From assembly GCA_002256995.1 (NCBI GenBank), contig NCGX01000034.1, positions 1 to 40,207 on the forward strand: DNA of 40,207 nt. The letters are read 5' to 3'. Positions 17,672 through 35,007 of the stretch are shown here, one piece after another. The first letter of the stretch is position 1. Each line of letters opens with the position of its first letter. A program made the position numbers and the translations under genes. This stretch comes from Hydrogenophilales bacterium 16-64-40 (GTDB lineage Bacteria; Pseudomonadota; Gammaproteobacteria; Burkholderiales; Thiobacillaceae). The notes beneath the pieces were generated by a model. The model had not been told where the DNA came from. It searched no databases and worked only from the letters and a program-made list of their open reading frames with translations.

Positions 17672-18397
17672 TCAGCGGCAGTGGTAACAGTGCTTCAGAA
17701 ACTTCACAATATCGACGGTATAGCGACGCGCGAGTCGCCGCGGCTCGAGGCACAAGCGATAGAACCATTCCAGGCGCATTTTTTGCACAAAGACCGGCGC
17801 ACGCGGCTTGTCGCCTGCCCAGAAATCAAACAATGCGCCGACCCCGGTCAGCATGCCGGCATGCAAGTCTTGGCGATGATCCAGTATCCACTGTTCCTGG
17901 ACCGGATTACCCATCGCTACCAGCACCACATCCGGCTGCGCCCGATTGATCGTCTCGACGAGCTGCGGATTGGCCTTGATGCCCTCGTAACCATCACAGC
18001 TTCCCACCACCACCTGGCCCAGCTGCTGCGTCACGTACTGCGCGGCTTTCTGCAACACGCGCGGCTTGCCGCCCACCATGAATACCCTGAGCGGCGTGGA
18101 TGACTGCCGAAACAAGAAGGGCATGAAGTCGGTGCCATTCAGATTTTCCTTGAAGCGGTCAGCGTGCAACAAGCGCGCTGCGATATCCATGCCGACACCA
18201 TCATTGACGATGACGACGCTTTCACTTTCCATCTGGCCAAGCATGTCGCGGCACTGAACGACAAAATTGGTATTCGCGAAAAACAGCGCAACCTGCTTGC
18301 GCAATTGCCGTTGTGCATGCAGGTAGGCTGCCAGTTCGGCCGAGGTGGTTTTGAGGACGGCGAACCCCCCCACCTGAATCGTCGATATTGATCGCAT
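17672..18397 (-). CDS. gumM: WecG/TagA/CpsF-family glycosyltransferase, GumM-like
   Basis: GumM adds the second backbone glucose (beta-1,4) to Glc-PP-undecaprenol in xanthan assembly. This 241-residue protein belongs to its family (GT26): FANTNFVVQCRD, VNDGVGMDIA, LNGTDFMPFL, VFMVGGKPRVLQKA, VLVAMGNPVQEQWI and the C-terminal LEWFYRLCLEPRRLARRY. The start at 18397 has AAGGAG before it; an upstream start adds 25 residues from another context. It is the last gene of the gum-like operon, as gumM is in Xanthomonas. Family membership is clear; acceptor specificity is inferred from the surrounding genes. Confidence 0.85.
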   Translation of the reverse strand: MRSISTIQVGGFAVLKTTSAELAAYLHAQRQLRKQVALFFANTNFVVQCRDMLGQMESESVVIVNDGVGMDIAARLLHADRFKENLNGTDFMPFLFRQSSTPLRVFMVGGKPRVLQKAAQYVTQQLGQVVVGSCDGYEGIKANPQLVETINRAQPDVVLVAMGNPVQEQWILDHRQDLHAGMLTGVGALFDFWAGDKPRAPVFVQKMRLEWFYRLCLEPRRLARRYTVDIVKFLKHCYHCR

Positions 18398-18464
18398 GGT
18401 CAAAATACTCCTTGGGAAACGCTGCCCCGTGCTGGATGCACATGCCTTGCCGGGAGGCGGCCCT

Positions 18465-19550
18465 TCATTCACTTATCCTGGAAGTCGAAACCTGTGGCAG
18501 CGTCACCTGGTTTTTTACTGGATCGATTCCCGCACTGCGCTTGCCAAAAACGAGCGGGAAAAAACGATACAGGAACAATGCGCTGGGGTAGCTCAACAAT
18601 AAGGCGAGCAAGGCAAACGCGCCGGTCCACAGAAACGAGGATTCCTTGAAGGCATGGGGCATCCCGAACACCACCACGCCGACACCCGTAAAGAGGCTGA
18701 ACATCAACAAGTGGATGGGGAATATGATGATTGTGTTTTTCGACAACCAATGAAAAACAGCATTGGCCGGCACGCTGATGGAGAAACAAAACAGCGCCAA
18801 AACGCCCAGGTACGCATTGATCAAAAACAGGTATCGGTGGCTGCCGAAAAGAAGCGTATTCAAGTCCACTTCGCCGTTGATGCCTGCGACATAGGCAACA
18901 CCGGCCAGCATGAACAGCGCGAGCATCATTGCCATGCCTTTGGGGGTCTTATCCAGAATCGCATCCTGATATCTGCGGAAGAAATGACCCGTTGAATAGA
19001 ACGCAAGCGCCACGACGGCGTTGTCCAGGCCCCACGGAAGGCGCGGCCAAGAAGGATCGTGAATCAGCGTAAACACCAGACCCATCAAGTTGAACGCGAC
19101 GAGCAGGAAAGTTGCCGAGACGTATTTTCTGGCCCAAAAAAATATCAGGGAAGTCGTGAACAGGCAGGTGAAAAACCATAACACCACGTTGACGAACAGC
19201 GCGTCGCCATTCCCGATCACCACGCCCATCATGGGTTCCCACCAGCTGACGCCTGCATGCTTGGCGGCGCTAGCGGCCAGGTCATGCGTCGGCAGCCAAT
19301 ACAAATAGGATATGAGGAAGAAAAACAGGTACGGTATTCCAAGCCCCTTCCATAACGAGGAAAGGTTTTCCCTGTAGGTCATGGACAGTTTTTGTTCGGA
19401 CAACAGCAACCCTGAAATAAAGAAGAACAAGGGCATGTGAAAACTGTAAATCACATTTTTAATGAACGGGTTCAAGCCGGGCGAATGCCCAAGGACAACA
19501 AGCACAATACCGATGGCTTTCATGGTGTCTACATGAGTTAATCTTTTCAT
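18465..19550 (-). CDS. membrane acyltransferase, GumF/GumG-like
   Basis: The 361-residue integral membrane protein belongs to acyltransferase family 3, which moves acetyl groups onto polysaccharides. The N-terminal signature is DTMKAIGIVLVVLGHSP with the conserved His, followed by YSFHMPLFFFISGLLL. About ten hydrophobic helices follow. In Xanthomonas, GumF and GumG acetylate the inner and outer mannose; only one such gene is present here and I cannot tell which position it serves. ATG 19550 is preceded by AGGAG; a start at 19574 adds eight residues. It sits between gumL- and gumM-like genes on the same strand. Confidence 0.85.
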   Translation of the reverse strand: MKRLTHVDTMKAIGIVLVVLGHSPGLNPFIKNVIYSFHMPLFFFISGLLLSEQKLSMTYRENLSSLWKGLGIPYLFFFLISYLYWLPTHDLAASAAKHAGVSWWEPMMGVVIGNGDALFVNVVLWFFTCLFTTSLIFFWARKYVSATFLLVAFNLMGLVFTLIHDPSWPRLPWGLDNAVVALAFYSTGHFFRRYQDAILDKTPKGMAMMLALFMLAGVAYVAGINGEVDLNTLLFGSHRYLFLINAYLGVLALFCFSISVPANAVFHWLSKNTIIIFPIHLLMFSLFTGVGVVVFGMPHAFKESSFLWTGAFALLALLLSYPSALFLYRFFPLVFGKRSAGIDPVKNQVTLPQVSTSRISE

Positions 19551-19603
19551 CCGATCATGCTCCTGGCCACCCATTAAAAATCACGTCGTGCATGGCTGGA
19601 CGC

Positions 19604-33184: not shown

Positions 33185-33230
33185 ATCGATTGCGCCTGGA
33201 CGGTTTTCAAGAGAATCTGAATGGAACCGC

Positions 33231-33566
33231 TCACTGGATCACCAGCAGCTTCTTTTTTCCGCTACGCCACAAACGCATGCTGATCAGGCCCAGGATGGCG
33301 ACAAGCATGGTCCAGGGATCGACTTCCGGCGCGACTGAAACACGTGACGCACCCCGGCTAGAGGCATCGTTCACCGCGGGTCTGGAATACGCGGAATAGA
33401 CGGGTGCGCCGTAGGCAATCGTCCTCACCGAAGGCGGCCGATCCACGCCCATCTCTGCCGTTGCCACACGCTGGACGGACGCCACGCTGTCGACCGGCAG
33501 CGAAGCGGCCAGAATCGCCAGCGACCAAGCAAACAACCCAACAAGCTTATGTGTTTTCAAACGCAT
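33231..33566 (-). CDS. small secreted protein with PEP-CTERM-like C-terminus
   Basis: The 111-residue protein has a signal peptide (KLVGLFAWSLAILAASLPVDS) and a short Ser/Ala/Arg-rich middle. Its tripartite tail is APEVDPW (79-85), a hydrophobic helix TMLVAILGLISM, and a basic end (RLWRSGKKK). This is the layout of PEP-CTERM sorting signals, although the motif reads PEVDPW rather than the usual VPEP. PEP-CTERM proteins are cut by exosortases, and EpsL/E/F/G modules often occur with exosortase genes, but none is present in this window. ATG 33566 has ACGGAGGTGCTAG before it. A surface or matrix role is inference. Confidence 0.72.
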   Translation of the reverse strand: MRLKTHKLVGLFAWSLAILAASLPVDSVASVQRVATAEMGVDRPPSVRTIAYGAPVYSAYSRPAVNDASSRGASRVSVAPEVDPWTMLVAILGLISMRLWRSGKKKLLVIQ

Positions 33567-33615
33567 CTAGCACCTCCGTGTTGATCAGCATTTCCAGTGT
33601 TGATTTCCGTCAAGC

Positions 33616-35007
33616 TCAGTAAGCCTTGGAATCCTTCAGCACCAGCTTGATCGTTTTAAAGATGATGGTTATATCGAGCCACACCGACCAGCTTTTCAGA
33701 TAGGCAATGTCGTAAATCACCCGCCCTTCCATCTTGTCGATGGTGTCGGTCTCGCCGCGATAGCCATTGATTTGCGCCCAGCCGGTAATGCCCGGCTTGA
33801 CCTTATGGCGCCACATGTAGCCATGAATCAGTTTGCGGTAATGCTCGTTGTGGGCTACGGCGTGCGGACGTGGTCCGACAATACTCATCGTGCCCTGCAG
33901 AACATTGAGAAATTGCGGCAATTCGTCTAGTGAAGTGCGCCGCAGAATGGCACCTAGCCGGGTCACGCGTGCATCATTTTGGGTCGCTTGTGTGACAACT
34001 TGATTGTCTTCGCACACACTCATCGAGCGGAATTTGTAAACCAGAATTTCATCGCCATCCACGCCATAACGGCGTTGCTTGAAAATCACCGGACCTTTCG
34101 AGGTGGCTTTCACCAGCACCGCAATAACCAGCATCAGCGGTGCGATCGCCAACAAAATAAGGCCGGCTGCCACAATATCGAAAACGCGTTTGTGGACAGC
34201 ATTGATTCCCGTCAACGGGGTCTCGAATACCGAGATGACCGGAATGCCATTCACGTTATCCAGCCGTGCCTGAACCAGATCGAACATGAATACGTCGGGC
34301 ACGAAATAAATCGATGCGGTGGTGTCCTTGAGCGAGCTGACCAGACCCATGACGTTCGGATGATTGAACATGGGAAGCGTGATGTAGACCAGGTCGATTT
34401 CATGCTCCGCCACATACGTCGCGACGTCATCGATGCCACCGAACACGACGTTTTTCAGTTCGCTCTCGCAGCGATCGCCGGACCGGTCATCGAAAAACGC
34501 CTCGACTCGCATCATCAAGCTGCGTTGCTGATGAATCCTGTCTGCCAGCTTGCGCCCCAACTCATTGGCGCCGACGATCACCGCACGCCGGATGCTGCCC
34601 TGGCTTCGCAACATCTCCAGGTATGCGCGCACCAGTGAATGTCCAATGAATAGCAACAAGGGTGTAATCAACGCCCACCACAACAGAACTCGGGCGTTGT
34701 AATCGCCAATGATTCCGCTCAGCACCCCGACCGCGCCCAATATGACCAGCACAATCAACCAGGCGATTAACAAGTTGAGTGCATAACTCGCATTGCCGCC
34801 CCGTGCGGAGACAGACGTCTCAAAAAACTCGAAGCCATCAAACACTTGGGACGCCAGCAGGAATGCAAATATGCCGAGCAGCAAATGCAGCCCGTCGAAT
34901 TTTTGCTGTTCCAGCGTCGCGGCAACAACCAGAGAAAATAAAATAATCAGGGGGTTGACCAGCCGCTTAGCCAAACTTAAAACCGGATGTTCATAACCAC
35001 CAAACAT
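33616..35007 (-). CDS. gumD: undecaprenyl-phosphate glucose phosphotransferase (GumD/WcaJ family)
   Basis: This enzyme starts repeat-unit assembly by moving glucose-1-phosphate from UDP-glucose to undecaprenyl phosphate. The 463-residue protein has four N-terminal helices, a Rossmann-like middle domain (RRAVIVGANELGRKLADRI) and the catalytic C-terminal domain after the fifth helix (KRVFDIVAAGLILLAIAPL). Motifs in that domain are IFKQRRYGVDGDEILVYKFR, RRTSLDELPQFLNVLQG, MSIVGPRPHAVAHN and KPGITGWAQINGYRGETDT. It is the first gene of the operon, as gumB-gumC-gumD is near the start in Xanthomonas. A weak GAGG precedes ATG 35007. Glucose is favoured over galactose by family and context. Confidence 0.93.
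   Translation of the reverse strand: MFGGYEHPVLSLAKRLVNPLIILFSLVVAATLEQQKFDGLHLLLGIFAFLLASQVFDGFEFFETSVSARGGNASYALNLLIAWLIVLVILGAVGVLSGIIGDYNARVLLWWALITPLLLFIGHSLVRAYLEMLRSQGSIRRAVIVGANELGRKLADRIHQQRSLMMRVEAFFDDRSGDRCESELKNVVFGGIDDVATYVAEHEIDLVYITLPMFNHPNVMGLVSSLKDTTASIYFVPDVFMFDLVQARLDNVNGIPVISVFETPLTGINAVHKRVFDIVAAGLILLAIAPLMLVIAVLVKATSKGPVIFKQRRYGVDGDEILVYKFRSMSVCEDNQVVTQATQNDARVTRLGAILRRTSLDELPQFLNVLQGTMSIVGPRPHAVAHNEHYRKLIHGYMWRHKVKPGITGWAQINGYRGETDTIDKMEGRVIYDIAYLKSWSVWLDITIIFKTIKLVLKDSKAY

Follow-up and report, generated by a model that had tools for sequence, protein, structure and literature searches.

A predicted xanthan-type exopolysaccharide operon with Eps-type export genes in Thiobacillus

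We describe a 40,207-base stretch (the window) that makes up an entire contig (C50) of Hydrogenophilales bacterium 16-64-40, a 3.1 Mb draft genome in 68 contigs; we take the host to be a Thiobacillus, a sulfur oxidiser. From position 35007 down to 17672 it carries gum-type genes which, judged by homology, appear to form a Wzx/Wzy-dependent exopolysaccharide (EPS) operon that would build a xanthan-type pentasaccharide, pyruvylated and acetylated, and export it by Eps proteins; we give this reading a probability of about 0.7. Gum-like clusters are already known, and xanthan is most familiar from Xanthomonas, which lives in association with plants. What is new here is that xanthan-type enzymes are combined with a different export module and an extra hydrolase, in a host where they were not expected.

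Gene content and predicted pathway

The genes of the cluster are listed below in operon order. Identities are from BLASTP against the gum open reading frames (ORFs) of X. vasicola (L038) unless another reference is named.

33616-35007, minus: gumD, GumD/WcaJ-type undecaprenyl-phosphate glucose phosphotransferase (TIGR03023, 521 bits, cut-off 410.75; 47% identity to GumD, confined to the C-terminal 276 aa)
33234-33566, minus: small secreted protein with a PEP-CTERM-like C-terminus (labelled from reading of the sequence; no Pfam match)
32036-33184, minus: epsL, EpsL outer-membrane protein lacking its C-terminal end (TIGR03014, 332 bits, cut-off 275; the ORF continues out of frame to 31589)
31306-32037, minus: epsE, EpsE outer-membrane export protein, without its signal peptide in the contig (TIGR03028, 317 bits, cut-off 262.65)
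29860-31281, minus: epsF, EpsF chain-length determinant (TIGR03017, 534 bits, cut-off 422.75)
28973-29863, minus: epsG, EpsG tyrosine-kinase partner of EpsF (TIGR03029, 345 bits, cut-off 313.8)
27678-28973, minus: gumE, GumE-type (Wzy) polymerase (26% to GumE, E 9e-24; no Pfam or NCBIfam match)
26540-27688, minus: gumH, GumH-type alpha-mannosyltransferase, GT4 (50% over 377 aa; site residues kept)
25527-26549, minus: GH5 endo-beta-1,4-glucanase-type enzyme with a signal-like N-terminus (PF00150; nearest solved structures 4w7u and 5hpc, named Cellulase)
24231-25382, minus: gumK, GumK-type beta-glucuronosyltransferase, GT70 (PF22059, GumK_N; 54% to GumK; site residues kept)
22837-24159, minus: ugd, Ugd UDP-glucose 6-dehydrogenase (TIGR03026, 447 bits, cut-off 189.8)
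21721-22791, minus: gumI, GumI-type beta-mannosyltransferase, GT94-like (109 of 345 columns identical to Xanthomonas GumI; motif set; structure model)
20382-21785, minus: Wzx flippase in the place of GumJ (PF01943)
19604-20401, minus: gumL, GumL-type pyruvyltransferase (PF04230, PS_pyruv_trans; 59% to GumL; tree)
18465-19574, minus: GumF/GumG-type acyltransferase (PF01757, Acyl_transf_3; 32% to GumF and 31% to GumG; tree)
17672-18472, minus: gumM, GumM-type beta-1,4-glucosyltransferase (PF03808, WecG; 52% to GumM)

The first-pass annotation had proposed a single minus-strand operon holding Gum counterparts together with ugd, and the genes are indeed co-directed and closely packed. Its wider claim, that a betaproteobacterium encodes an almost complete gum pathway joined to Eps-type export, is supported by homology and protein families, the likeness of GumH, GumK and GumL to the Xanthomonas proteins by the BLASTP identities, and a gene order different from that of Xanthomonas by comparison of the loci. 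Two of its claims hold in part: a Wzx flippase is present where a GumJ counterpart had been named, but the match to GumJ itself is weak, and EpsL, EpsE, EpsF and EpsG all score above their NCBIfam cut-offs and take the place of GumB and GumC, but EpsL and EpsE are not whole here.

Every family that a Wzx/Wzy-dependent EPS system needs is present, namely flippase, polymerase, chain-length protein and outer-membrane export protein, the last being EpsE without its signal peptide. By homology only, the GumD and GumM pair for Glc-Glc-PP-lipid is also there; the glycosyltransferase family of GumM we take to be GT26. In the proposed pathway GumD would place Glc-1-P on the lipid carrier, GumM would add the second Glc, GumH an alpha-Man, GumK a GlcA from the UDP-GlcA made by Ugd, and GumI the terminal beta-Man, after which GumL would attach a pyruvate ketal and the lone acyltransferase an acetyl group. 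The flippase would then move the unit out and GumE would polymerise it, while EpsF, EpsG, EpsE and EpsL would set the chain length and carry the chain across the outer membrane instead of GumB and GumC. Of the precursors, UDP-GlcA would come from Ugd, and a supply of UDP-Glc and GDP-Man is possible since GalU and GMP-PMI are found above cut-off elsewhere in the genome.

Conserved sites in GumK, GumH and GumI

The GumK protein matches the crystal structure of Xanthomonas GumK (PDB 2HY7) with E 4e-132 and 53-54% identity. We surveyed 80 of 101 named GumK loci, 48 from Xanthomonadaceae and 32 from other bacteria, and with the window protein and the PDB fragment these give an alignment of 82 rows. 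Among the positions followed, D157, E192 and Q310 were included as presumed site residues, and Asp157 we take to be the catalytic base. S230, M231, L232, Y292, Y300, S305, K307 and Q310 are invariant in 82/82 rows, while 81 rows have D157 and L301. The majority of these positions in the donor site are named in PMC12768416. GumH keeps H118, N174, R198, K203, E279 and E287, so that the EX7E motif is retained, and GumI keeps W68, N108 and H112. These positions of GumH, E279 and K203 among them, and of GumI are discussed in PMC13104830.

GumI against its paralogues

GumI is the weak link of the set and was therefore scored against GumI-like paralogues. A hidden Markov model (HMM) built from seven Xanthomonadaceae GumI proteins only gives 156-163 bits for four Thiobacillus proteins, 165-178 bits for three of Cellvibrio type and 161 bits for that of a Micavibrio metagenome-assembled genome (MAG; L086). 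With the same model, seven GumI-like proteins of other Thiobacillus loci score 25-124 bits and eight paralogues from an order-wide search 54-144 bits, the top one being L161. Every one of the 15 aligned GumI rows (seven Xanthomonadaceae, four Thiobacillus, three Cellvibrio-type, one L086) has the full motif set NPY, HWP, HN, H, HGHY and NSG, which is complete in none of the 15 paralogues (0/7 from other Thiobacillus loci, 0/8 order-wide). A 16th aligned row, an Oxalicibacterium protein of 24% identity, does not have the full set.

GumK was absent at E 0.001 from all seven other Burkholderiales genomes that have a GumI-like protein lacking the motif set, while genome G435, checked alongside them, has GumK at E 1e-236. 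On these sequences, GumI with the full motif set goes together with GumK. In L086 (10004-12148) GumK and then GumI are encoded in one open frame of 714 aa, a natural fusion, and this fits consecutive steps of a pathway. An AlphaFold2 model of the window's GumI has a confident fold (pLDDT 87.5), and its neighbours in a fold search are generic GT-B enzymes, a result that bears out the fold but no more.

The GH5 partner

The GH5 protein has both catalytic-type Glu residues, as do all 23 proteins aligned, and its best solved relatives are cellulases and endoglucanases (4w7u, 5hpc). Among loci with GumH, a GH5 gene is present in 22 of 24 outside Xanthomonadaceae versus 0 of 47 within. Backbone-cutting periplasmic hydrolases occur in other EPS systems. 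The signal-like N-terminus is seen by reading of the sequence, and the secreted enzyme probably trims or clears a cellulose-like backbone in the periplasm. As an endoglucanase it is a testable new partner of GumH loci outside Xanthomonadaceae.

Distribution

Counting the window's own genome, 5 of 56 Thiobacillus genomes encode a close GumI (at least 86% identity), and in all five it lies within a cluster of this kind, either complete or truncated at contig ends; in G003 GumI is split into two contig-end pieces of 92-95% identity. In L017/L155 the cluster is complete, with its genes intact and ordered as in the window. Parts of the window's flanking DNA adjoin the cluster in G435 and in T. denitrificans RG, and in G003 no flanking match of more than 150 bases, the shortest that the comparison lists, lies beyond gumM. 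T. denitrificans RG (L018) is a named strain bearing the cluster and usable for testing.

GumK was detected in 5 of 60 relatives (one weak match, at 25%), and the GumK family PF22059 in 2 of 370 genomes of the class and 3 of 397 of the phylum, each count including the window's own genome. With a model built in part from the window protein, GumI-like matches occur in 9 of 399 genomes of the order, and only the two from Thiobacillus exceed 550 bits. In the locus survey presence was called at score thresholds of our choosing, and since flanks end at 10 kb or at a contig end the locus counts are lower bounds. GumI was found in 47/48 Xanthomonadaceae versus 8/32 other GumK loci, and GumL in 46/48 versus 9/32. 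EpsG is present in 0 of 47 Xanthomonadaceae loci with GumH versus 17 of the 24 others. None of the nine other betaproteobacterial loci (L020-L026, L035, L067) has GumI above threshold. Three of these nine (L023, L024, L025) are separate GumK loci of a single genome, that of Glaciimonas immobilis.

Integrity of the window copy

The border between epsL and epsE is damaged in the window. In L155, L014 and L011 EpsL has a proper stop, followed by a spacer and by EpsE with a signal peptide, so that 179-196 bp separate the matched EpsL end from the matched EpsE start. In the window the two matches abut in different frames (32020-32050) and the region is ~195 bp shorter than in L155: at about residue 383 the EpsL coding sequence passes directly into the codons for Ala-Met-Asp-Tyr of EpsE. 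The last ~22 residues of EpsL are lost and give way to out-of-frame readthrough, while EpsE has an in-frame stop just upstream and no signal peptide. With EpsE and EpsL in this state the window copy may be unable to export, and a true loss at the border would be expected to stop export altogether.

The window copy could accordingly be a dead or dying locus, unable to export since the loss at the border, with its remaining genes still open only for want of time to decay. We put this at a little below an even chance, and it is compatible with a xanthan-type product. It is favoured by the missing DNA, which the three related loci retain, and by the genome having no second EpsE above the family cut-off. 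Against it, a shortening seen in a 68-contig draft is possibly an assembly error, and the remaining ORFs of the cluster are open. Contig C22 of the same genome (L154, G000) also carries a fragment of a second EPS locus, with an EpsE fragment at the contig end and an EpsL relative. Besides, death of this copy would have no bearing on the four Thiobacillus relatives.

Nature of the product

Several points weigh against a true xanthan-type repeat. The polymer composition is predicted from the genes. GumI shares only 31-32% identity with its Xanthomonas counterpart (E 3e-39; E 1e-37 against L038), and its margin over the best paralogue is small, since L161, from a genome without GumK, reaches 144 bits. 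Asn108 is not diagnostic, being present in 5/8 order-wide paralogues and 4/7 of those from Thiobacillus loci, and the GumI tree joins long branches and leaves relations not settled. The annotation of GumI as a Gum-family protein holds by HMM score above all 15 paralogues and by the motif set, but L161 lies near and the tree does not settle it. Elsewhere in the cluster, the flippase, of Wzx type by PF01943, matches GumJ at 28% over just 160 aa (E 3e-6), E192 and S304 of GumK differ among the 82 rows, and a single acyltransferase stands where Xanthomonas has two; our tree places it outside both GumF and GumG, with relations not settled, and by its sequence it cannot be assigned to either. Finally, extra genes lie between gumK and the GH5 gene in two genomes: for a second flippase and a pyruvyltransferase-like/GT2 protein in T. 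denitrificans RG (G002, L011:3209-6590), and for a second flippase in G003. Their functions are judged by reading of the sequences and a GumJ match, and with them the repeat may differ within the genus.

A product related to acetan should be considered, with the shared Glc-Glc-Man-GlcA core as predicted, but with a different sugar or linkage from the GT94-like enzyme and the pyruvate at some other position. The scarcity of GumI in GumK loci outside Xanthomonadaceae, its low identity and the high-scoring paralogue are consistent with this, as are Oxalicibacterium and an Azoarcus MAG, which have GumL without GumI within the stretch covered; moreover, the polymers made by gum-like clusters in acetic acid bacteria are different ones (PMC5050591). 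We nevertheless consider such a product unlikely, since the full motif set separates every GumI row from every paralogue, and the Thiobacillus GumL falls on the Xanthomonadaceae side of a fully supported split from Oxalicibacterium and Cellvibrio, although the Azoarcus MAG falls there too.

History of the cluster

Twenty-nine Xanthomonas rows were omitted from the GumK, GumL and GumH trees. In the tree of GumK, Thiobacillus falls inside a group that also holds a Herbaspirillum MAG, Oxalicibacterium and Glaciimonas (support 100/99), and in the GumH tree, from a short search, it joins Glaciimonas (SH-aLRT 97). In the GumL tree Thiobacillus, Xanthomonadaceae and the Azoarcus MAG are split from Oxalicibacterium and Cellvibrio (100/100, with a long-branch warning). 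Rather than clustering with unrelated glycosyltransferases, the GumK, GumH and GumL candidates of the first-pass annotation fall with the Gum families. On these trees GumK and GumH belong to a betaproteobacterial clade outside Xanthomonas, so the gum core is likely old in this group, while GumL may have a separate history. That Thiobacillus recently acquired its gum operon from Xanthomonas, to which the lower G+C of the cluster (51-61% per 2-kb block versus 61-68% in the flanks), its patchy occurrence in 5/56 genomes and the position of GumL might point, is very improbable: it is opposed by the GumK tree, where Thiobacillus groups with Oxalobacteraceae, and by the GumH tree, by gene order and export genes unlike those of Xanthomonas, and by identities of 50-59%, low for a recent move. 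GumL alone could have moved.

As a tentative scenario, which we hold somewhat short of probable, an Eps-exported operon with GumD-M-H-K as the core for a cellulose-type backbone, its own GH5 endoglucanase acting on that backbone and Wzy would be the older form across Beta- and Gammaproteobacteria and would predate Xanthomonas xanthan, side-chain capping by GumI and GumL would have been added in few lineages, and Thiobacillus, as a chemolithoautotroph, would make true pyruvylated xanthan from CO2.

Relation to known systems

With the gum operon of Xanthomonas the cluster shares counterparts of GumD, GumM, GumH, GumK, GumI and GumL, one enzyme of F/G type and the polymerase GumE. It differs in having EpsL/E/F/G instead of GumB and GumC, a distant flippase, one acyltransferase instead of two, ugd and GH5 within the operon, another gene order and another host. 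The GumD, GumM, GumH, GumK and GumE core is likewise found in gum-like/acetan clusters of acetic acid bacteria, and in Gluconacetobacter (L090) a GH5 gene adjoins GumE, as a further likeness. Unlike the window, two acetic acid bacteria stretches (L090, L092) yielded neither GumI nor GumL, and Kozakia, according to PMC5050591, is without gumF, gumG, gumI and gumL.

GumK loci of Oxalicibacterium, the Azoarcus MAG, Rhodoferax, Marinobacter, Cellvibrio and Halorhodospira share a block of EpsG, GumE, GumH, GH5 and GumK, and EpsE and EpsF also where the stretch extends to them. Most of them, unlike the window, have no GumI and/or GumL within the stretch covered, while Cellvibrio-type loci (L028, L033, L037) have both, with GumL on the opposite strand. 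The EpsE, EpsF, EpsG and EpsL set is shared with methanolan-type clusters, from which the Eps names presumably originate; here it is joined to a xanthan-type set, and the exosortase is on another contig.

A review (PMC6801904) states that other organisms lack homologues of GumI and GumL. Their joint presence in one Thiobacillus operon is contrary to this statement, whose GumI half is already outdated in databases: PMC13104830 calls GumI the only characterised GT94 enzyme and names GT94 entries from other organisms. In the titles and abstract openings returned by searches of open-licence papers we found no xanthan-type locus named in Thiobacillus, in line with the remark of the first-pass annotation that no xanthan-like polymer is well described from this group. 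The cluster offers an independent enzyme set for an industrial gum and relatives for GumI.

Other features of the window

The small PEP-CTERM-like gene between gumD and epsL is kept in L155, L011 and L014, and suggests a surface protein accompanying the polymer; the exosortase is encoded on contig C17 of the same genome. The window has a perfect sigma-54 site at 35200-35215, to which the ~600 bases upstream of gumD in L155, L011 and L014 contain no exact match, while a one-mismatch site at 35669-35684 resembles the sequence of L155 and L011. Since the window holds three matches where chance alone would give 3.58, a sigma-54 promoter is retained as a lead only. Repeats in 17000-35500 are short, diverged, chance-like families and were dismissed. 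In the window no RNA family reached the gathering threshold and no tRNA was found.

The flanks carry an IS110-type (57-1106) and an IS200-like (Y1; 7520-8023) transposase gene, a transaldolase-transketolase fusion of ~1000 aa (10556-13564, minus), and cydB for cytochrome bd oxidase subunit II (13713-14864, minus), divided into two ORFs by an in-frame TAG stop. On the other side of the cluster a single protein (36922-38283, plus) unites MsrA, MsrB and a thioredoxin-like stretch.

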